Positions 1 to 17,515 of a stretch of 30,802 nt of DNA are shown one piece after another. Each line of letters opens with the position of its first letter. Position 1 is the stretch's first letter. Source of the DNA: a virus; IMG/VR virus record IMGVR_UViG_3300021964_000311, positions 1 through 30,802 of that record, one strand, 5' to 3'. Below the pieces are notes generated by a model. That model made no database searches, was not told where the DNA came from, and saw only the letters and a list, made by a program, of their open reading frames with translations. Position numbers and translations under genes: made by a program.

Positions 1-378
1 CAAGACTGTGAATGTCGATCGGGGCATCCAGCCTCGAATCTGACGGAACGAGAAGCACGCCGAAAGGTACAGCCGTTCCCGATCTCAAGTAAAAGCGTGT
101 TTTGGCACCAATGCTTGAGGCGACCTAGATGATAGCGAAGGCTTAAGAATAGCGCAGTTGCTCCAGTGATGGAGGGAACGTAGCGGCCTGAGGTGGACTA
201 GGGATGATCTCACGGAATCAGCCGAGTGATGTGTCAATAATCACCAGAGAGCATCCGACCGAGTGTTTAGGCTTAGAAAGGTGGGCGATAATGCCTATGT
301 TTCGGCCACCTTGATTGGGGAGGGTAAGGTTTGACGGCCTCACGAAACTGTGGACGTGGGATTTATGGGTAAGGTTTA
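1..378 (+). ncRNA. Gene-free structured leader, possible 3' part of a large RNA
   Basis: No ORF with a convincing start lies here. Complementary segments suggest folding: 17-23 (GATCGGG) pairs with 78-84 (CCCGATC); 85-89 pairs with 114-118; 161-165 and 170-174 form CTCCA/TGGAG closed by a GTGA tetraloop of the GNRA class; 278-284 (AAGGTGG) pairs with 306-312 (CCACCTT). An 11-base direct repeat, GGGTAAGGTTT, occurs at 322-332 and 368-378, the second copy abutting the first tRNA-like element. Large phage RNAs of the GOLLD and ROOL type often lie near tRNA genes, so such an RNA is possible, but I cannot match a consensus and the 5' part would lie outside the window. It could instead be a long early-operon leader. 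Confidence 0.35.
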
Positions 379-422
379 GCGTCGCTGGAGCGATAACCGA
401 GGTTCGATTCCTCGGTGACGCA
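379..422 (+). ncRNA. tRNA-like minihelix 1 (acceptor stem plus T-arm)
   Basis: Bases 379-385 (GCGTCGC) pair with 415-421 (GTGACGC) to give a 7-bp acceptor-like stem with one G-U. Bases 398-402 (CGAGG) pair with 410-414 (CCTCG) around the T-loop TTCGATT (403-409). A422 sits where the tRNA discriminator base would be; CCA is not encoded. Only 12 bases (386-397, including TGG) separate acceptor and T-arm, so D and anticodon arms are missing and this cannot decode. Acceptor plus T-arm is the known minimal substrate of RNase P and CCA-adding enzyme. The structure is clear; function is inference. Confidence 0.6.
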
Positions 423-423
423 C

Positions 424-443
424 TGCCGCCACCAAGGGCGGCA
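424..443 (+). promoter_or_regulatory. 5' leader hairpin 1
   Basis: TGCCGCC (424-430) pairs with GGCGGCA (437-443) around a six-base loop. It starts two bases after the discriminator-like A of minihelix 1 and is followed by ACATACAAAGGAG and the start codon at 463. It is nearly identical to the hairpin at 829-846. If the minihelix were removed, this stem would form the 5' end of the mRNA, a known way to protect transcripts. There is no T-tract, so it is not a terminator. Confidence 0.55.
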
Positions 444-462
444 CATACAAAGGAGCAAACAC

Positions 463-774
463 ATGAGCGCCATGCCTAATTTCGATTGGTTTTGGGCTGA
501 CCCTTGGGGTCACATGACGGACGATGCCAAAGAATTGGCTACGTTTATGCAAAACGACTACGATCTTTGGATGCGTCGTCGTCTAGACTTCTGGAAGAAT
601 CTAGACAGACACGAGGCACGTGGTGTCTTTGACACCAAGAAAGCCGTGAAGGGCTTAGGTCATTTTGTCTCCGAAGGAGCCAAAAAGTATGGACATCGTT
701 TCGATCCTTCGGATCGTGAACAGGTTGCCAAGTTTTTCGTATGCTTATGGAGTGAAGATCACTCCATGAAGTGA
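463..774 (+). CDS. Hypothetical early protein, 103 aa
   Basis: I do not recognise the family. The ATG at 463 is chosen over an in-frame upstream start at 415, which would lie inside the tRNA-like element; AAAGGAG at 449-455 is well placed for 463. The product is rich in aromatic and charged residues, with an N-terminal FDWFWADPWGH segment, a basic centre (MRRR) and many Asp, Lys and His. It has no signal peptide, membrane segment or cysteine motif. It is the first gene of the visible array and stands between minihelices 1 and 2; its last codons and stop form alternative hairpins (749-765 or 757-776). A small early host-takeover protein is plausible from position only. Confidence 0.7.
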   Translation: MSAMPNFDWFWADPWGHMTDDAKELATFMQNDYDLWMRRRLDFWKNLDRHEARGVFDTKKAVKGLGHFVSEGAKKYGHRFDPSDREQVAKFFVCLWSEDHSMK

Positions 775-776
775 TC
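749..776 (+). other. Mutually exclusive hairpins over the stop codon
   Basis: GGAGTG (749-754) can pair with CACTCC (760-765), or GATCACT (757-763) can pair with AGTGATC (770-776) around CCATGA. The second form contains the TGA stop (772-774) and ends five bases before minihelix 2. No T-run follows, so this is not a normal intrinsic terminator. It could protect a 3' end produced by cleavage at the minihelix. Confidence 0.5.
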
Positions 777-781
777 CGATA

Positions 782-827
782 GGCTAGGGCTGGTGCCTTC
801 GGCAAGATTCGATTTCTTGCCTAGCCA
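782..827 (+). ncRNA. tRNA-like minihelix 2 (acceptor stem plus T-arm)
   Basis: GGCTAGG (782-788) pairs perfectly with CCTAGCC (820-826). CAAGA (803-807) pairs with TCTTG (815-819) around the T-loop TTCGATT (808-814). A827 is discriminator-like and is followed by CT, as in the other two copies. The 14-base connector (789-802) again has a TGG that could act like the D-loop GG in tRNA elbow contacts. The T-stem sequence differs from copies 1 and 3 yet still pairs, which is compensatory support for the fold. No anticodon arm exists. Confidence 0.6.
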
Positions 828-828
828 C

Positions 829-846
829 TGCCGCATCTAGGCGGCA
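829..846 (+). promoter_or_regulatory. 5' leader hairpin 2
   Basis: TGCCGC (829-834) pairs with GCGGCA (841-846) around ATCTAG. It begins two bases after the discriminator-like A of minihelix 2 and precedes ACCTACAAAAGGAG and the next start. Stem sequence, loop size and spacing match leader hairpin 1, so the unit is duplicated. Confidence 0.55.
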
Positions 847-866
847 CCTACAAAAGGAGAAACAAC

Positions 867-1058
867 ATGAGCACAGACACACGGATCAAGGGTGCCGCTT
901 TAGCGGCTTTTGCTGTCGGCAAGACGGTGGAAATTTGGTATGCGGCACCGAATGGTGATTCTAGCGATTCGGTGATCCACCATCTTGTCTGTCATTCTGA
1001 CAGTCAAGCCGAGGCAGTTGCCGAGATGCATCGTAGCGTCTGGAATTTGACAGTCTGA
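867..1058 (+). CDS. Hypothetical early protein, 63 aa
   Basis: No family is recognised. The start is set by AAAAGGAG at 852-859 ahead of the ATG. The N-terminal half is alanine-rich (GAALAAFAVGKTVEIWYAA) and the C-terminal half has His and Asp residues (HHLVCHSDSQAEAVAEMH); one cysteine is present. It could be a compact single-domain fold; there is no clear transmembrane helix. It is flanked by minihelices 2 and 3, and its TGA stop lies in the loop of a perfect 7-bp hairpin. A further perfect hairpin (CTGTCA, loop TTC, TGACAG) lies inside the gene at 989-1003. Confidence 0.65.
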   Translation: MSTDTRIKGAALAAFAVGKTVEIWYAAPNGDSSDSVIHHLVCHSDSQAEAVAEMHRSVWNLTV

Positions 1059-1065
1059 GACTGTC
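1049..1065 (+). other. Stop codon in the loop of a perfect hairpin
   Basis: GACAGTC (1049-1055) pairs with GACTGTC (1059-1065); the three-base loop TGA (1056-1058) is the stop codon of the upstream gene. Minihelix 3 begins one base later. The lack of a T-tract argues against an intrinsic terminator. Confidence 0.6.
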
Positions 1066-1066
1066 G

Positions 1067-1109
1067 GGCTAGGGTGGTCGTCACCGAGGTTCGATTCCTC
1101 GGCTAGCCA
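1067..1109 (+). ncRNA. tRNA-like minihelix 3 (acceptor stem plus T-arm)
   Basis: GGCTAG (1067-1072) pairs with CTAGCC (1103-1108), six base pairs with a mismatch at the seventh position. CGAGG (1085-1089) pairs with CCTCG (1097-1101) around TTCGATT (1090-1096). A1109 is discriminator-like, followed by CT. The T-arm and flanks are identical over 20 bases to minihelix 1, while the acceptor matches minihelix 2, as if copies had recombined or been duplicated with domain exchange. Confidence 0.6.
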
Positions 1110-1111
1110 CT

Positions 1112-1129
1112 CCCTACCGAATGGTAGGG
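1112..1129 (+). promoter_or_regulatory. 5' leader hairpin 3
   Basis: CCCTACC (1112-1118) pairs with GGTAGGG (1123-1129) around GAAT. It has the same position after a minihelix as hairpins 1 and 2 but a different stem sequence, so the structure rather than the sequence is kept. An ATG at 1121 falls inside it and is not the gene start. Confidence 0.5.
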
Positions 1130-1165: not shown

Positions 1166-2422
1166 ATGAGATATGTCCACCAAGTTGCCATCGTAGATGA
1201 CAACATTCAATGTTTCGTTAGCGATTCGCCAATAACTGATAGTTATTGGGTCGATTTCGATGGTCTGCCGATGGCAGAGTGTCGTAGGGCTAGTCGTAAT
1301 CTAGAGATTGCGACAACTGCCACAACGACAAGAGATCAGATCAGCGATCTGATTCATCGTCACTTTGCTGGAGAGTTGACGACCGACGATTACATTAAGC
1401 CGAAGGCTTCGCAACGTCGTCGGATTTCGACTTCGACAACACCAGCACCGACACCTTCGGTGTCGTCGTCACCGATGGATCTTGGTGTCATCTCCGATGT
1501 CATCAAATCAACAGTGGCCGATGCCATGTCGTCGTTCCAACATCCTTTAGATGTTGACGCTGTGAACGCTCTGATCCAATCTGCCATCGAAGATGCCAGA
1601 TTGCCAGTGTCGTACCAGTTCAACGTCGGCTCTAAGCCGACAGTGACAGTCAATGGAGCGCACCAAATGGTGCCATCCATCGTTCGATGGATGACTGCTG
1701 GATTGAACGTCTGGCTTCATGGCGAGGCTGGCAATGGTAAATCTACCATTGCAGGACATGTGGCCGAGGCTCTAGGTGCTGAACTCTTCGAGATCAGCCT
1801 TTCTCCAGAGACTAGCGAAGTGAAACTTCGAGGCTACAACGATGCTCAAGGTCGTGAGGTTCTATCGGCCATAGGCCGAGCAGTCAAGGCCATGCTGGAA
1901 GGCAAGACTGTCGTCTTGTTTTTGGATGAGATAAGCAACGCTAGGCCAGACCTAGCGACATGGCTCAACATGATGTTGGCCAACCGAAAGGTGGAACTGC
2001 CTAGTGGAACATATGAACTCACTGATGAGTTCTATGTTTTGGCAGCGGCCAACGACATTGGTCTTGGTGCTTCGGTCAAGTACCCGAAGGGTAAGTTGCA
2101 GGATGCTTCGTTCCGTGACCGTTTCAACTTTGTTGAGATTGGCATTGACATGAACATCGTCAACTCTGTTGTCGCCACCAAGTGCCAAGACGATGCACTG
2201 CTTCAGCAGTGGATGGGTGTCTGGCACACGGCACGACTGAACGTCAAGACCTACGGTCTCAACTTCGAGATCACTCCTAGGTCGGCGATTCAAGGTGCAA
2301 CCTTGCTTGGTCTTGGTGAGAGCATCGAGGTGGCTACGATGGCGGCACTCCTTCGAGGAGTGCACGACCAACACCAGATCGACAAAGTGCTGGAAGGCAC
2401 CAACGTGAAAGTGAGCGTATGA
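1166..2422 (+). CDS. AAA+ ATPase, CobS/MoxR-like
   Basis: The 418-residue product has a variable N-terminal ~120 residues with a Ser/Thr/Pro-rich linker, then an AAA+ module. Walker A is GEAGNGKST from about residue 186, Walker B is VVLFLDEIS with D254-E255, sensor 1 is AAAND near residue 296, and FRDRF near 317 could hold the arginine finger. This resembles CobS/MoxR-type ATPases that remodel other proteins. The ATG at 1166 is chosen because AGGAGG (1153-1158) precedes it; an upstream in-frame ATG lies in a hairpin. The stop overlaps the start of the next gene (ATGA), as for a co-produced partner. Several perfect hairpins lie inside the gene (1335-1353, 1449-1465, 1625-1641, 1674-1693, 2345-2363). 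Confidence 0.88.
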   Translation: MRYVHQVAIVDDNIQCFVSDSPITDSYWVDFDGLPMAECRRASRNLEIATTATTTRDQISDLIHRHFAGELTTDDYIKPKASQRRRISTSTTPAPTPSVSSSPMDLGVISDVIKSTVADAMSSFQHPLDVDAVNALIQSAIEDARLPVSYQFNVGSKPTVTVNGAHQMVPSIVRWMTAGLNVWLHGEAGNGKSTIAGHVAEALGAELFEISLSPETSEVKLRGYNDAQGREVLSAIGRAVKAMLEGKTVVLFLDEISNARPDLATWLNMMLANRKVELPSGTYELTDEFYVLAAANDIGLGASVKYPKGKLQDASFRDRFNFVEIGIDMNIVNSVVATKCQDDALLQQWMGVWHTARLNVKTYGLNFEITPRSAIQGATLLGLGESIEVATMAALLRGVHDQHQIDKVLEGTNVKVSV

Positions 2423-3216
2423 TGGAATGGGTGACCGAGTATCACAACTCTCTTCGAGAGTTCATGTCCACTGTGTCAGATCGTACTAGGAAGTACGATG
2501 CTGGCAGTGGCGACTGGTATGGCTACACCAACGATGTTGGTGAGGCTCTAGCGATTGCTGAGCGTGGCTGGCAGGAAGTTCGACCGAAGGTCGATCAGGC
2601 TAGGTCAGAGATCATGGGTGCCGTTAGGCAGTTCGTGAACGTTGACGTTGTTCCAACGTGGCAGGTTGCTGGTGGGGAAGTTGACATTGCCGAGTTCCTC
2701 ACTGGCAATCCCGAGTGCATGGTGACATTTCCTGTCACTGAGCAGTCCACAATGAAGCGTTCGCTTCGCCTAGTCCTAGACCCTGGTGGTTGTGCCGATG
2801 TGGATGGTGAGCAACTTGCCACCAGAGGTGCCGCTGTAGCGACACTGTTGGAAGTGTTGCAACTGTTAGGTTTCTCACTGGAAGTGATGCTTGCTAGTCC
2901 TGTCAAGGGCACGATCCGAGGCAAGGTTTACACTCCAGTGATAAAGGCTAACGAGGCTGGCACCTTGGTGGACATTGACAATCTGATGTTCGCTTGTGGT
3001 CATCCTGCAATGCTTCGGCGGATGATCTTCACCGAGCGGCTTCAGCACTCTGGCGCTATGGGTTCTAGTGTTCGGCTGGATGTTGATGCTCTGGGTTTGC
3101 ATGACATTGACCTTGTGATGCAACGTGCAGAGCATCGCTCTGCTTCGGAGCCTGATGCTGGCTTCCAGCCTGTCGAGTGGGTTCGGTGGGCGTTGGTGAA
3201 CCTAGAGATCCTCTAG
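2419..3216 (+). CDS. Partner of the AAA+ ATPase, possible degenerate vWA-like protein
   Basis: The start overlaps the ATPase stop, so the two are translationally coupled. The 265-residue product has a helical N-terminal half, then alternating beta and helical segments (RSLRLVLDPGG, ATLLEVLQLLGFSLEVML) whose order recalls von Willebrand A-like folds. No DxSxS metal site is seen, so any vWA resemblance is degenerate. MoxR/CobS-type ATPases are usually encoded beside a vWA or CobT-like partner, which supports a two-gene machine. The substrate is unknown. A second ATG directly follows the first. The stop codon sits in the 3' arm of a perfect hairpin at 3201-3217. Confidence 0.75.
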   Translation: MMEWVTEYHNSLREFMSTVSDRTRKYDAGSGDWYGYTNDVGEALAIAERGWQEVRPKVDQARSEIMGAVRQFVNVDVVPTWQVAGGEVDIAEFLTGNPECMVTFPVTEQSTMKRSLRLVLDPGGCADVDGEQLATRGAAVATLLEVLQLLGFSLEVMLASPVKGTIRGKVYTPVIKANEAGTLVDIDNLMFACGHPAMLRRMIFTERLQHSGAMGSSVRLDVDALGLHDIDLVMQRAEHRSASEPDAGFQPVEWVRWALVNLEIL

Positions 3217-3217
3217 G
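3201..3217 (+). other. Stop-codon hairpin ending the ATPase operon
   Basis: CCTAGAG (3201-3207) pairs with CTCTAGG (3211-3217) around ATC. The TAG stop (3214-3216) lies in the 3' arm. This is the third gene end in the first 3.2 kb that carries such a hairpin. Confidence 0.55.
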
Positions 3218-3377
3218 CTAGATGTTGGGTGGTGGTGGGGCTTCGGCTCCGCCACCATCACGCTGGATGTAGCGTGCTGTGCACCACCCGAACTACTGTT
3301 GTAGGTGGTTGTCTCCCCTGATGGGGTGGTGCATGGCACGGTGCATCCCGCACCGTGCAAACTAAAAGGAGAAACTA
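3218..3377 (+). promoter_or_regulatory. Highly structured intergenic leader
   Basis: 3228-3241 pairs with 3246-3259 (14 bp including G-U pairs) capped by a C(TTCG)G tetraloop. 3274-3289 can pair with 3324-3339 (16 bp, two G-U). 3336-3344 (GCACGGTGC) pairs perfectly with 3350-3358. The last two helices share 3336-3339 and so compete; a small stem 3259-3263/3272-3276 competes with both neighbours. AAAAGGAG follows at 3364-3371. This looks like a regulatory leader or an mRNA-protecting element. I recognise no riboswitch class and there is no T-tract terminator. Confidence 0.5.
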
Positions 3378-11433: not shown

Positions 11434-12137
11434 AAGTATCTAGAGATCACAGGCCACGTTTGTGAACCAATCCAACCGTCAGCCTGCAAGCCATGCTTGC
11501 CTTGCCAACGCATCAACGCCGCCTCGGTCTTGCGACCGAAGATCCCATCAACCTTAGCACCCACAACTTTCTGGATCTGCTTGACAAGTTCCTTGTCTTT
11601 CTCGCCACGACGAATCGGCTTGCCACGGAACGGAACAAAGTTCCTCTTAGGCGGAGTTGTGTCCGCTCCTAGCAGTTCGGCAAACGCCTGCTTAAAGAAA
11701 TCTGCATCATCAGCAACCGAAGGATCAACCTCCACGTGGCACCAGTCTGCCCATGATGCACCGCCACCAGTCACCGTCTTACGTAGATACTTCTTCCAGC
11801 CACGGTCACAACGCCATGCCCTGCCGAAAGGCTTGGGCTGATAGTCCACCACCATCGTCAACATCAGACGGTCACCGTTATCGGCCAGCCAGTTGATCCA
11901 CTTCTCTGCCACCTTGCGGTCGCCACACCCTGAGTGTGGTGACCCACGGTAACTGAAGTCAACCGCCCTGCCTGTCCCGTGGATACTAGGCTTCGAGCCG
12001 CCACGGATCGATCTGCGCCCATAGGAACCGTTATTAAAGAACGCTCCGCCTGTGGCTTTCACAAACTCTCGGATGAACTGTTCGGTTCCTGCACGCTTCT
12101 TCGTTGCGTACCCGTCGAACCCTACATACTTTCTCAT
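11430..12137 (-). CDS. Endolysin: M15-type peptidase plus peptidoglycan-binding domain
   Basis: The 235-residue product has the M15 (VanY/D-Ala-D-Ala) zinc signature SIHGTGRAVDF with His53 and Asp60 and a second site WCHVEVD with His134. A linker with KRNFVPFRGKPIRRG leads to a C-terminal peptidoglycan-binding domain (about 175-235, VKQIQKVVGAKVDGIFGRKT...GSQTWPVI). It should cut stem peptides of the host wall. It has no signal peptide, so it needs the holin encoded 16 kb upstream in the same arm. It is the last late gene and overlaps the preceding gene by four bases (ATGA). Confidence 0.85.
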   Translation of the reverse strand: MRKYVGFDGYATKKRAGTEQFIREFVKATGGAFFNNGSYGRRSIRGGSKPSIHGTGRAVDFSYRGSPHSGCGDRKVAEKWINWLADNGDRLMLTMVVDYQPKPFGRAWRCDRGWKKYLRKTVTGGGASWADWCHVEVDPSVADDADFFKQAFAELLGADTTPPKRNFVPFRGKPIRRGEKDKELVKQIQKVVGAKVDGIFGRKTEAALMRWQGKHGLQADGWIGSQTWPVISRYF

Positions 12138-15100
12138 AACCCTAACTCTTCTTTCATTTCTTCTCTTGCGGCTTTAATGATTTCTTCTGGAGTTTGATAC
12201 TCCGACTTTGCTTCACGCATAATCTTTTCGATCCCGTACACCGTAGAGTCTACCGCTTTCCTTAGTTCTTCATCGGTTAGATCACGGTACGGAATACCTA
12301 GATAGTTGGCGAACGTTGTCAGGAAGTCACGCGACTTGTAACGCTCGGGGCCACCGACAAAATCTTGTGCACCTTCCAGCCCGACAGCACCCAACGTAGG
12401 TTGCAAGTAGCGTTGCAACTGTGACAACGGAGGTAGCAAACTAGGTAGAAGTTCCTGCCAGTATTTGTTGAACTCGGGTTCTTCACCTCGCCACAACCTA
12501 GTGATGTTCTGTAACGCTTGCGCTGGACGATCAGTGATGCCGACAGGATCTTCAACAGGTCGCCGCAAGTTGCTACCAAACATCGCGGACTCACCCATAG
12601 CAAGTTCAACACCTGCACGAATCAGAGGGTTCGATTGGGCGGCAATCCTAGACAGACCGCCGCCACCTAACTGGTTGATTTGTTCCTGCAAACCAACCAT
12701 CGGTAGGTCTGGCATCAGCACCTTGTCTGCCCCCAGCATGATCGGGTTGCGGTTCGACATCCATTCTGGAAGAATGGTGTCGAAGTCTCCGCCGCCATCA
12801 ACAACACGTTCATAGGCACGGTACATTGCTGGCCGTGTAATCATGTTCACCATCTGCAACTGGACGTTGCGGCTAGCAAAAGTCCAGAACGGAATGATCT
12901 GCTTCATCGTCCTGTCGAACCCGCTAAGGTCAGAGTAATCGAAATGGTAGCGTCGGATACGTGCCGCATTAGCGTTCATGTCCCAACCTTTTTGCACAGC
13001 ATCTAGAGCCATGCCCATACGTGCCGCAATCTCCACTGTTTCGTTGACACGTTGCTGTCCACGTGTGAGCGCATTGTTGTAAGTCCAATCCCAGTTCCGT
13101 TTAGCCTTGCCGCCAACCACAGGTTGCGGCTTGATGCGCTTAATCAAAGGCAACACTTCGTCAATGGCTTGACCGCCACCAGAAATCAGCACCGCTTCAT
13201 ACGCTTTCTCTAGATCGTCACGCATCTGCTTGCCGTACTTGCGTTCAGCCCAATCCAAAGCGTACGTCAAACCACCCTTCTCGGTGTTGCTAGTTCTGAT
13301 CCTTGCCAGTTTGCTAGCGAACTCAATGCCGATCTGAGTGTTCTTAAAACCTACGTCTGCCACAGCGTTGTTGAACGCCGCAGTCATAGCGTTACGCACC
13401 GTAAATCCTGGGGTTGCGATAGCCCACGCCTTAAAGAACCTAGTGTAAGCACGATAGTATTTCAACAAATCCTTCCAGCCGTCAGGATCTACCACCTTGC
13501 GGATACCAGACATCCATTCGTCCATGATTTCTTTAGGAACCTGAACACCTAAACCTTGCAGTTCAGACCATCCGTCAAGAATATCTTTCTCCATCTTCTG
13601 TAGATGGGAGGCAGACAACTGGGCAAAAATCCCCTCGTTCATTGTTATCTCACCATCAAGGAACGCTAGGTCTGCCTCCATGCCATGCAACTGTTTGAAC
13701 ACCCTGTCGTACGCCGCACGCTGACGGTTATCCAAAATACTAGGATCGTTAATCTGCTGAATGATGCTTTCAACCTGATCGAACCAGTCTTTTGTGGCCT
13801 GCTCGCTAGTACCCTTAGTCGGCTGACTCTTCAACAAATCATCTAGGCGTTTAATCTTGTCGTCATACTCTGCACCAACAGTCGTGACCCAAGTGTTCTG
13901 ATCTACGGACAACGCATTAGCGGTGTCCATATCGGTAGCAATACTGGTCACCTGCTTCTCCGTGTCATCAATATATTTTATTAACGGATCATTCTCCACA
14001 GCGGCATCGAACTTGCGTTTCTCTGCCGCAACCTTCTTGTTCAAAACAGAACGCTCTTTGTATTGCGCCTTCAACTCTGGAGTGGTCTCAGATGCCTCTA
14101 GATTGCGTTGTACGCCCCGTTCAGACCTAGTAAGCCCCGACCTAGCACCCCCAACGTCACGGCCAACCTGAGCGATCGCCTCTTCAGCGGCCATAATATC
14201 TGTATCAGCCACATCCATACGGGTCTGAACCCGCTGACGCTCCTTCAACAGATTATCAAACTCCTGCATCACCTGCGCTTCACGAACAAAAGGATCAGCA
14301 GGCTCAATGCCGCTCTCAGGAACAACAGCACTCCACTTAGAAGAACCCATCTCAATGCCAGCGAACACATCGTCAGTGGTGCCCCTGAAAAGATTCTGTG
14401 CTTCCGTGCTAGAAACCAGCAACTTGTTACCCATGCCGTAATCTACGTCAGGCAGAACAACAGTGACACGGGCACCCTCAGGGTTGGCGGCCTGAGCCGC
14501 CGCCCTGATAGAGTCATCAACAATGGCGTAAGCATCCTCAGGATCAAACGGTTCCAACGACCTAGCGGACAGAACCGTGTTGATCTGATCCGCCAACTCA
14601 TTCAAGTAAACCTCTACCACTTCAGGGCTTGTCTCAGCAGAACGCCCCCAACCTTCGATCGTAGCGATCAGACCATGCAAATCTTCAGGCACCCTAGGAT
14701 CAACGTCCGTTCCTAGCGGGGAACGCAACAGACGTGAAGTTTCCCGCACAATGTATTCACCCAGCGCATCATCACCAGTAGCGGCCACAACATTGTCAGC
14801 AATACTGGAAGGCAAACCAACAATGATTTCCTGCACATCCTCCAGACGCAACCCTAGATCGTAGGTTTGCTGAATGTCTGGAGCAGGCAACGCCACAGGG
14901 TCAGGGATCTCATCGAAAGTATCGTAAAAAAACACCGTGTCGTTAGTAGGTTGACTTTCCAAATGCGCCTTAGATGTATACATCATCCCATCAGGGAACA
15001 CCTCAGGGTCATAGTTAACGTCAACCATTTCCCGCAACAAAGCCTTCGTTTCATTCGTCGCAACAAGCGACTCCTCAACCACAGCCATCTCTGCCTCAGC

Positions 15101-17515
15101 AGTAGCCCGACGTGTGGACGCTCCAGCCTTCTTGCCTTCAGCCTTAGCCTGTTTAGTTTCCAACGACTTCAATCGTTGCTCAAAACGTTTACGTTTTGCG
15201 CCAACGATCTCATCAGCCAACACCTTCATGTCAGTCGGACGCTTAGCCCTACTGGGGAACATTTGAACATGCTGTTCAACCAACGCCTGACGTGCCGCTT
15301 CACGCTTCGCAGTACCACTATCAATAGATTTCTTCAACGCTTCTAGTCGCATCTCTAACGGAGCGATAGCAGTCTCATACTCCAACTTGGAAGCGTCAGC
15401 ATTCTTCGCCAACTGCTTCTTAGTTGTGTCAATATGCTTCTTCAAAGCATCCAAGTCTTTAGTCATCTGAGCAATAGACTGCTCAGTGTCCTCCAACATT
15501 GCAGTCCCATTAGACACAGCCTTAGCCAAACGATTCCCAGTTCCCTGCATTTCATTGGCTAAAGTTCTTTGATTACCCTTAACAGTGGTACGTGCAGAGT
15601 TCTGAATCATGCGAACAAGTTTGTTACGTTGACTGTTCAAACCCCTCAACGTAGATTGGACACTGTTCATAGCCTGCTTGTTGTTCACATACTTAGGTAG
15701 AACAACACGGATCACATCGTCGCCATGCTCAAACAACTTGTCCATATATCTGATACGACGAAAGTTCCTAGCCGCAGAATCAATGTAACTAGACAACACA
15801 GTTGAAGCACTCGTGTTGAACCAATCGTAATCCACCTCAGCCTGCTCACGGAACACACGGTTGATTTCCTCAATCGTGCCTTCCTTCAGTTCAACACCAA
15901 AAAACTTTTCACCCTTAACAACTTTACGTGCACGCAACGCTCCCACGCCACGCTTCATATCAGCAACAGACTCCTCAAACATTTCGTTAAACATCGACTT
16001 GAACGGGCTGTCATCACCATTCTTCTTCAACCAGTCAGCCGCATCACGAGTAATCGTGTGAGAAAAATAGTTCTCAATATCGTTGATGTTGTTAACAAAC
16101 TCTGGAGTTAAACCATACTCCTTGGTGATCCGATCCATCGCATCGTTATACATTTGGCGGATCTCACCAAACGCCAACTGTGTTTCCTCAGCCAACGCCC
16201 TAGCCGTAGGATCAAAAATGTTTGCAACAGTACCACCCTCAATCGCCAAATGTAAAGCATCATCAAACTCTGACTTAGACAGACGGCTAATCAAATCGTA
16301 GTAACGTGAACCAATCATCTGTTGCATCTTGCCGTACTCCGCTTTAGCGGCAAGACTCGCATTATAGTGTGCGATCATCGACTTTGCTTCGCCGCCAGTT
16401 GCCTTGTTGCTGGCAAGCGAACGCAAACTACGCAAACTCTTAGTGGTAAAGAACTCGTTAATCTTGTCGTTCTGCCTCAGCAGACGACTACCACCATACC
16501 TAGCGTAAGATGCTCCACGACCAATCGAGTTAGACAAGAAACCTGTGCCACGGATTGTGGAACGCTGACCAAAGTTCAAAGAGATACCAGCATGTTCAAT
16601 GATGCCAGCGTTCGCCAACAGGCGACGTTGCGCCTTGTCCAAACCGAACTCTCCCAAACGATAAATCTTGCCATAATCTAGTGCCTTGATAGCACCTCGC
16701 GTAACTGCGTTCTCTAAAACTTGAACCGCATCTTTCTGCAGTAGACGTGACGCAAGAGCGGCACGTCCAGCCTGACCTGCCCACTTACCTGCACCAAACG
16801 ACACGTAACTTAAAGGATCAACAGCGGACTGTGCGGCAAGTTCAATGCTTGCATCTAGCGTCCACAACCCTGCGCGTGAAAGCCAACCCAACACAGGGAT
16901 ATCTGGGGTGTCAACCTTGTCACGAATGTTGGGCACAGTCACATGGAACGTTGGGTCACCGTACAGTTCAGTCCAACTAGGCATGTACCCTTGTTGAATT
17001 TTGTCTTGTAAATCTGGATTAGAAACACTAACAAATTTGGCGGCAATAGGGGTCGGTGTTCCTTCGTAAACAGTACGACCTGTTCTTGCTGTTGCTCCAG
17101 CGGCATCTAACGCTTGTTGCGGTGTCATTCCCTGACCAGCGATGGCACGTATTCCTTGTTCTAAACCTCCAGCACCCGTAGCGACAGTAGCGGCAACACT
17201 TTTTGATGCCGCCGACAAACCTTCCAAACCCAAAGTTAAAGGTTTCAGATACCAAGGGGTATCTTTGCGTTGCTCAGCCAAACCGTAAACGTTGCTGATT
17301 ACTTCTTCCCATTTGTCTGGATCAACTTCGTTGCGTTCCAGTAACGCATCGAACAAAGCCAACTCTATAGGGGAACGGTTCTGTACGTTCTCTTGCGTCG
17401 GAAGAACATTACCAGTATTGACTGGGGTAGGGTTTTGCCCTTGCCCCGATTTCAAATAATCTTCTAATGTCCAGTCGCTATTATCAGAAGAGAACGGGCT
17501 ACGAATTACTGCCAT
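12134..17515 (-). CDS. Giant internal virion protein, 1793 aa
   Basis: By far the largest gene. The first ~330 residues include small hydrophobic and Ala/Gly-rich stretches (LSAASKSVAATVATGAGG). The middle (about 640-820 and 1150-1300) is long charged coiled coil with Lys/Glu/Ala/Gln. The C-terminal part has segments typical of large podovirus virion proteins (FKAWAIATPGFTVRNAMTAAF; MKQIIPFWTFASRNVQLQMV). Size and place between smaller internal proteins and the endolysin match proteins such as T7 gp16 that are ejected to form a DNA channel. No lytic transglycosylase motif was found. Family-level homology is not established. Confidence 0.72.
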   Translation of the reverse strand: MAVIRSPFSSDNSDWTLEDYLKSGQGQNPTPVNTGNVLPTQENVQNRSPIELALFDALLERNEVDPDKWEEVISNVYGLAEQRKDTPWYLKPLTLGLEGLSAASKSVAATVATGAGGLEQGIRAIAGQGMTPQQALDAAGATARTGRTVYEGTPTPIAAKFVSVSNPDLQDKIQQGYMPSWTELYGDPTFHVTVPNIRDKVDTPDIPVLGWLSRAGLWTLDASIELAAQSAVDPLSYVSFGAGKWAGQAGRAALASRLLQKDAVQVLENAVTRGAIKALDYGKIYRLGEFGLDKAQRRLLANAGIIEHAGISLNFGQRSTIRGTGFLSNSIGRGASYARYGGSRLLRQNDKINEFFTTKSLRSLRSLASNKATGGEAKSMIAHYNASLAAKAEYGKMQQMIGSRYYDLISRLSKSEFDDALHLAIEGGTVANIFDPTARALAEETQLAFGEIRQMYNDAMDRITKEYGLTPEFVNNINDIENYFSHTITRDAADWLKKNGDDSPFKSMFNEMFEESVADMKRGVGALRARKVVKGEKFFGVELKEGTIEEINRVFREQAEVDYDWFNTSASTVLSSYIDSAARNFRRIRYMDKLFEHGDDVIRVVLPKYVNNKQAMNSVQSTLRGLNSQRNKLVRMIQNSARTTVKGNQRTLANEMQGTGNRLAKAVSNGTAMLEDTEQSIAQMTKDLDALKKHIDTTKKQLAKNADASKLEYETAIAPLEMRLEALKKSIDSGTAKREAARQALVEQHVQMFPSRAKRPTDMKVLADEIVGAKRKRFEQRLKSLETKQAKAEGKKAGASTRRATAEAEMAVVEESLVATNETKALLREMVDVNYDPEVFPDGMMYTSKAHLESQPTNDTVFFYDTFDEIPDPVALPAPDIQQTYDLGLRLEDVQEIIVGLPSSIADNVVAATGDDALGEYIVRETSRLLRSPLGTDVDPRVPEDLHGLIATIEGWGRSAETSPEVVEVYLNELADQINTVLSARSLEPFDPEDAYAIVDDSIRAAAQAANPEGARVTVVLPDVDYGMGNKLLVSSTEAQNLFRGTTDDVFAGIEMGSSKWSAVVPESGIEPADPFVREAQVMQEFDNLLKERQRVQTRMDVADTDIMAAEEAIAQVGRDVGGARSGLTRSERGVQRNLEASETTPELKAQYKERSVLNKKVAAEKRKFDAAVENDPLIKYIDDTEKQVTSIATDMDTANALSVDQNTWVTTVGAEYDDKIKRLDDLLKSQPTKGTSEQATKDWFDQVESIIQQINDPSILDNRQRAAYDRVFKQLHGMEADLAFLDGEITMNEGIFAQLSASHLQKMEKDILDGWSELQGLGVQVPKEIMDEWMSGIRKVVDPDGWKDLLKYYRAYTRFFKAWAIATPGFTVRNAMTAAFNNAVADVGFKNTQIGIEFASKLARIRTSNTEKGGLTYALDWAERKYGKQMRDDLEKAYEAVLISGGGQAIDEVLPLIKRIKPQPVVGGKAKRNWDWTYNNALTRGQQRVNETVEIAARMGMALDAVQKGWDMNANAARIRRYHFDYSDLSGFDRTMKQIIPFWTFASRNVQLQMVNMITRPAMYRAYERVVDGGGDFDTILPEWMSNRNPIMLGADKVLMPDLPMVGLQEQINQLGGGGLSRIAAQSNPLIRAGVELAMGESAMFGSNLRRPVEDPVGITDRPAQALQNITRLWRGEEPEFNKYWQELLPSLLPPLSQLQRYLQPTLGAVGLEGAQDFVGGPERYKSRDFLTTFANYLGIPYRDLTDEELRKAVDSTVYGIEKIMREAKSEYQTPEEIIKAAREEMKEELGL

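Follow-up and report, generated by a model that had tools for sequence, protein, structure and literature searches.

Reduced tRNA-like elements as probable RNA-processing signals in the early operon of a podovirus-like phage, with hammerhead ribozymes at the same junctions in relatives

Between the early genes of a podovirus-like phage lie three short elements that we consider, with a probability of roughly three in four, to be reduced tRNA mimics acting as RNA-processing signals of the early mRNA. Each of these tRNA-like elements (TLEs) combines an acceptor stem, a short D-loop-like connector and a T-arm, the anticodon arm being absent. On sequence comparison, their reading as cleavage sites is strongly supported, because 22 related phages have hammerhead ribozymes in early junctions, including the one that precedes the ATPase gene.

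The window, by which we mean the whole stretch of DNA analysed, is an entire IMG/VR virus record and spans 30,802 bases. The plus strand carries the early genes, and the minus strand carries the structural ones; the structural region includes a very long protein of 1793 aa (minus strand, 12134-17515). The early operon around the three elements, E1 to E3, is laid out as follows.

1-378, plus strand: structured noncoding RNA with no substantial open reading frame (alignment with relatives L003 and L004, consensus fold, covarying pairs)
379-422, plus strand: TLE E1, GCGTCGC/TGGAGCGATAAC/CGAGG-TTCGATT-CCTCG/GTGACGC/A; predicted RNase P cut 378/379, predicted RNase Z cut 422/423
425-442, plus strand: 5' hairpin of the gene 1 message, GCCGCC-ACCAAG-GGCGGC (sequence, consensus fold)
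463-774, plus strand: gene 1, 103 aa, no known family
757-776, plus strand: hairpin at the stop codon of gene 1, where the 3' end of its mRNA is predicted (sequence)
782-827, plus strand: TLE E2, GGCTAGG/GCTGGTGCCTTCGG/CAAGA-TTCGATT-TCTTG/CCTAGCC/A; predicted cuts 781/782 and 827/828
829-846, plus strand: 5' hairpin of the gene 2 message (fold)
867-1058, plus strand: gene 2, 63 aa
1049-1065, plus strand: stop-codon hairpin of gene 2, GACAGTC-TGA-GACTGTC, 1 nt before E3 (sequence, fold)
1067-1109, plus strand: TLE E3, GGCTAGG/GTGGTCGTCAC/CGAGG-TTCGATT-CCTCG/GCTAGCC/A; predicted cuts 1066/1067 and 1109/1110
1112-1129, plus strand: 5' hairpin of the ATPase message, CCCTACC-GAAT-GGTAGGG (fold)
1166-2422, plus strand: MoxR/AAA_5 ATPase gene (Pfam AAA_5); the preceding junction holds a TLE or a hammerhead in relatives
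3280-3333, plus strand: weak candidate for a further junction element, TGCACCA/TGGTGCA stacked on CCCC-TGAT-GGGG, without a T-loop

An earlier note on this DNA had placed three elements at 379-422, 782-827 and 1067-1109, and these coordinates were confirmed: a search for the combination of 7-bp acceptor, 5-bp T-stem and canonical T-loop found precisely these in the window, with 0 matches on the other strand and 0 in 200 Markov-simulated sequences of the window. E1 to E3 are not chance occurrences. Acceptor and T-stem stack in the 7+5 register of tRNA with the T-loop in place, pair 7:66 being often mismatched, and CT directly follows all three elements. Some details of the earlier note need correction. 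Pair 7:66 of E3 is a G.G mismatch and leaves 6 of 7 acceptor pairs. The fixed order that it proposed is only partly kept, since only E2 and E3 have a stop-codon hairpin on their 5' side (757-776 and 1049-1065), E1 being preceded by a long noncoding stretch, and AAAGGAG accompanies E1 and E2, whereas E3 has AGGAGG. Its description as minihelices captured the acceptor and T-arm and missed the D-loop. In the predicted folds of E2 and E3, the connector forms a small hairpin of its own (GGTG..CACC in E3), so that the connector TGG is best read as a D-loop or reduced D-arm, and E2 and E3 themselves are best read as three-arm reduced tRNAs, not plain minihelices. For E1 in isolation, the fold of minimum energy is a different, long hairpin.

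No tRNA was detected in the window by ARAGORN, whose negative result also led us to reject a tmRNA identity. The Rfam tRNA family (RF00005), a full cloverleaf with anticodon arm, gave a match of 23.2 bits against a cut-off of 29, the anticodon region being absent, and the mascRNA-menRNA family (RF01684) gave 27.9 bits for E3 and 18.7 for E1 against a cut-off of 42.5; E1 to E3 thus fall outside both families. A blastn search of the region against annotated phages returned short matches only, mostly to tRNA T-arms. An attachment site built on a tRNA 3' end was rejected as well, the 5' acceptor strand being present and covarying.

Two close relatives, L003 and L004, were reached via the ATPase gene, and both carry all three TLEs at the same places (E1 counterparts at 3218-3261 and 2718-2761, respectively); an ATPase alignment scan of viral contigs, run with poor peptide patterns, returned known loci only. 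Compared with the window, the T-stem shows paired changes from CGAGG/CCTCG to CGGGG/CCCCG, and the connector hairpin of E3 changes on both sides, from GGTG..CACC to GATG..CATC in L003. The noncoding stretch of about 380 nt on the 5' side of E1 is also conserved in L003 and L004, with covarying helices, and E1 would define the 3' end of this RNA, whose length is at least 378 nt. Its counterparts lie at about 2760-3217 in L003 and 2290-2717 in L004, and more distant relatives have noncoding stretches at the same place; a conserved 24-mer from it, used as a query, recovered L003 and L004 only. It has no Rfam match, which led us to reject GOLLD, RNase P RNA and any other Rfam family as its identity.

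The gene between E1 and E2 differs in each of the three phages while the elements stay constant. Between the conserved flanks, gene 1 is swapped for unrelated small genes (L003 3321-3613, L004 2803-3045), and gene 1 as a query found no relative. This arrangement, an unrelated gene 1 between conserved elements in the three closest phages, is what DNA recombination sites for the exchange of gene cassettes would produce. We regard that explanation as very unlikely, since it leaves the covariation at the RNA level, the coding-strand bias and the replacement by hammerheads (both described below) without an account. Recombination and RNA roles can nevertheless coexist, because conserved flanks permit homologous recombination.

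The search was extended to distant relatives, as the earlier note had advised. The capsid gene matched about 600 contigs, and a covariance model built from 8 copies found good new elements, beyond the window and a close relative, in 2 of 45 records: G020, with a TLE before a small gene of the same early operon, and G027, with TLEs before the first small gene (found by reading) and before an ATPase gene whose product is 30% identical to that of the window. With the DnaB-like helicase as query, 80 loci were obtained, many extending to the early operon, and a relaxed scan upstream of the helicase found 54 TLE matches on the coding strand against 3 on the opposite one. Of the 54, four were discarded for their implausible location and 50 were kept; at least one TLE was present in 34 records, some of them near-duplicates. 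Among 32 distinct elements in the 7-bp register, all 12 stem pairs were changed on both sides (counts not tree-corrected), and 94% of cells were paired compared with 41-51% in slid controls, a figure inflated because the scan itself required pairing; strand bias and position are free of this inflation. Pair 7:66 was not maintained in 20 of the 32. Some copies of E1 have larger bodies (L179, L184 and L199): they include a D-hairpin, for instance CACAC-AGGCA-GTGTG, and their acceptor lies about 75 nt upstream.

The helicase scan of bacterial and archaeal genomes revealed no prophage or host; the best annotated match by portal and helicase was an uncultured podovirus from Manatee Spring, with a portal 42% identical. 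Many relatives carry a single true tRNA gene, found by ARAGORN or scans and mostly located just upstream of the early operon: tRNA-Asn in L129, L147, L151, L161-L163, L165, L167, L172 and L189, tRNA-Leu (CAA) in L124, L125 (called by ARAGORN) and L127, and tRNA-Lys in L146 and L150. In L099 (4940-8120, reverse strand) and L105 (11800-13660, reverse strand), two phages in which TLEs are few or absent, a short motif, GTGCG..GTGCGTCTTTGAT or GTGTG.GCGTCAAAGA, is repeated before early genes and is a candidate promoter or another RNA element.

A real tRNA close to the elements in some genomes, together with copies in L159 and L160 that are nearly tRNA-sized (74 nt), might suggest that TLEs are decaying remnants of full tRNA genes. 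We find this scarcely credible: the anticodon loop is absent, identical and precise spacing recurs across many genomes with E1 to E3 keeping the 7+5 register, and the covariation of stems and elbow indicates selection for the fold. Covariation in relatives, whose absence the earlier note had listed among the outcomes that would tell against its proposal, is present, and the same covariation speaks against remnants of full tRNAs, the other outcome it had held against itself.

Three features outside the scan criteria, namely elbow pairing, R73-C74 and a downstream hairpin, bear on the likeness to tRNA-processing substrates. T-loops of the TGC type go with TAG in the connector and those of the TTC or TCC type with GG: the ratio of TAG to GG is 17:2 for TGC and 1:24 for TTC/TCC (Fisher 4e-9, not tree-corrected and including some near-duplicate contigs), and 10:2 and 1:18 after similar connectors were collapsed (Fisher 1.5e-5, not tree-corrected). 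The three discordant cases (L172b, L128a and L200b) arise because a simple leftmost rule was used; read by sequence, L172b has TTGG further along the connector, and L128a and L200b have TAG within a hairpin loop closed by GCAC/GTGC. Such covariation between T-loop and connector is expected if selection acts on the tRNA elbow pair 18-55, which could be either G18-U55 or A18-G55, and it is through this pair that a D-loop/T-loop elbow is recognized here; C56 is invariant in the alignment by design of the scan and says nothing about pair 19-56. Of the 50 elements, 45 have R73-C74, the dinucleotide that would pair with RNase P RNA. At position 75, T or G predominates, the encoded sequence being R-C-T/G instead of RCCA, and the RNase P contact at this position would therefore be weaker. 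In 37 of 50 elements, a hairpin of at least 5 bp starts no more than 5 nt beyond position 73, compared with 14% in shuffles.

The elbow and the acceptor are also what a trans-acting decoy of tRNA, EF-Tu or tRNA enzymes would display, and the several copies per genome would suit a role in altering host translation or tRNA processing. Such a decoy is nonetheless highly improbable, given that the elements hold a fixed position in cis between genes, that CCA is not encoded and that hammerheads, which do not mimic tRNA, take their place.

These hammerheads, of type II, were first spotted in the junctions of G023, as GGACGAAAC...GTC...CTGATGAGTCC. The core consists of GAAA, CUGANGA and the GUC cleavage site, and the two closed stems vary between copies and still pair. 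Copies in relatives show the features of Hammerhead_II (RF02276), that is, the core, three stems, an NUH cleavage site and an open stem II; against a cut-off of 37, the copy of L125 scores 50.4 bits, above it, and that of L112 scores 27.7 bits (E 0.003), below it. At least one hammerhead was found in 22 records, and 10 hold both kinds of element; all convincing copies lie on the coding strand in early junctions. The Manatee Spring podovirus has a hammerhead in its early operon as well, at 1949-2004. In the window, no match to the Hammerhead_II core was found. At the junction immediately 5' of the ATPase gene, the window, L122, L128, L129, L130, L134, L160, L172, L179 and L184 have a TLE, and L165, L168 and L175 have a hammerhead. 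Hammerheads also follow the homologous 271-287 aa gene in L149, L154, L157 and L182, at the junction that in the window holds the candidate element 3280-3333. In the window, a hairpin comes after the acceptor-like structure of that candidate, and the junction of genes 4 and 5 (3216-3377) has a near-identical counterpart in L122.

The distance to the start codon is mostly 38-59 nt from the end of a TLE and mostly 23-31 nt from the end of a hammerhead. The predicted 5' UTR left after a cut has a median of about 55 nt for hammerheads and 51 nt for TLEs, with a hairpin at its start in both. The uniform placement of the TLEs, all about 40-60 nt before start codons with a hairpin after them, would also suit structured leaders that are never cut, whose stable, tRNA-like fold would bar exonucleases or control translation of the gene downstream. 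This reading we judge unlikely, because self-cleaving ribozymes replacing TLEs at the same junctions point to cutting, and an elbow with R73-C74, which tRNA-processing enzymes read, would be superfluous for a mere barrier. In principle, TLEs and hammerheads could serve different ends at one site.

The proposal of the earlier note is thus supported in part. Its core, that the early polycistronic mRNA is cut at these elements into single-gene messages with protected ends, gains strong comparative support from conserved position, covariation of pairs and elbow, R73-C74, the downstream hairpin and replacement by hammerheads; the host enzymes that would act on them, RNase P, RNase Z and CCA-adding enzyme, are candidates. 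Each TLE would fold into a tRNA-like elbow within the early transcript, and host RNase P would cut on its 5' side. RNase Z could cut after the discriminator where CCA is not encoded. A cut by RNase Z on the 3' side of the discriminator is probable here, though the less certain step; after an RNase P cut alone, the TLE would stay on the 5' end of the downstream message. With the TLE excised, two messages would result, the upstream one ending in a hairpin (the stop-codon hairpin at a TLE, stem III at a hammerhead) and the downstream one beginning with CT followed by a hairpin, about 50 nt ahead of its start codon. In related phages, self-cleaving type II hammerheads would do likewise at equivalent junctions. 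The purpose would presumably be separate stability or expression of each message. We also favour, with less assurance than the signal function itself, a dedicated mRNA punctuation of this phage family, in which anticodon-less mimics with G18-U/C55 and A18-G55 elbows recruit host enzymes and have been exchanged with hammerheads in evolution.

Precedents exist for several parts of this proposal. Bacterial RNase P cleaves model substrates consisting of acceptor and T-arm, its GGU pairing with R73C74C75, and host RNase P acts on phage M3 RNA, P1/P7 C4 RNA, operon mRNAs and T4 gene 32 mRNA (PMC11143913); phage RNAs and polycistronic mRNA are thus cut by the host enzyme there too, but as single or incidental sites, whereas here a dedicated array is repeated at gene junctions. 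The MALAT1 mascRNA and MENbeta menRNA (RF01684) are likewise small elements with D-arm and T-arm inside a long transcript, and in mascRNA an elbow of two D-loop guanines and the T-loop is recognised by RNase P and RNase Z, which cut it (PMC11693755). These RNAs are, however, mammalian, each present once at the 3' terminus of a noncoding transcript, unlike arrays between phage genes; moreover, E2 and E3 of the window lack an anticodon-side arm, and the Rfam scores obtained here stay below the cut-off. In mitochondrial tRNA punctuation, units shaped like tRNAs separate the genes and show where the transcript is cut to free single messages (PMC8601606); those are working tRNAs, whereas the elements here are anticodon-less mimics in a DNA phage that alternate with ribozymes. 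Type II hammerheads are common in bacteria, and hammerheads occur in phage intergenic regions and cleave in polycistronic RNA (PMC3088659); they are the devices of the 22 relatives, the window itself having none. In the open-access literature, we found neither an array of tRNA mimics within phage operons nor an exchange of such elements with ribozymes.

If the proposal is true, tRNA punctuation by mimics that are not tRNAs would extend beyond organelles to a widespread phage group, and the elements, carrying a new elbow variant, would be natural minimal substrates of RNase P and RNase Z. The junctions would also record a rare evolutionary experiment in which a cut site dependent on protein or ribonucleoprotein and a self-cleaving ribozyme replace each other. 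Small self-cleaving ribozymes of phages, whose role is mostly unknown, would thereby gain a concrete job, the separation of early messages.
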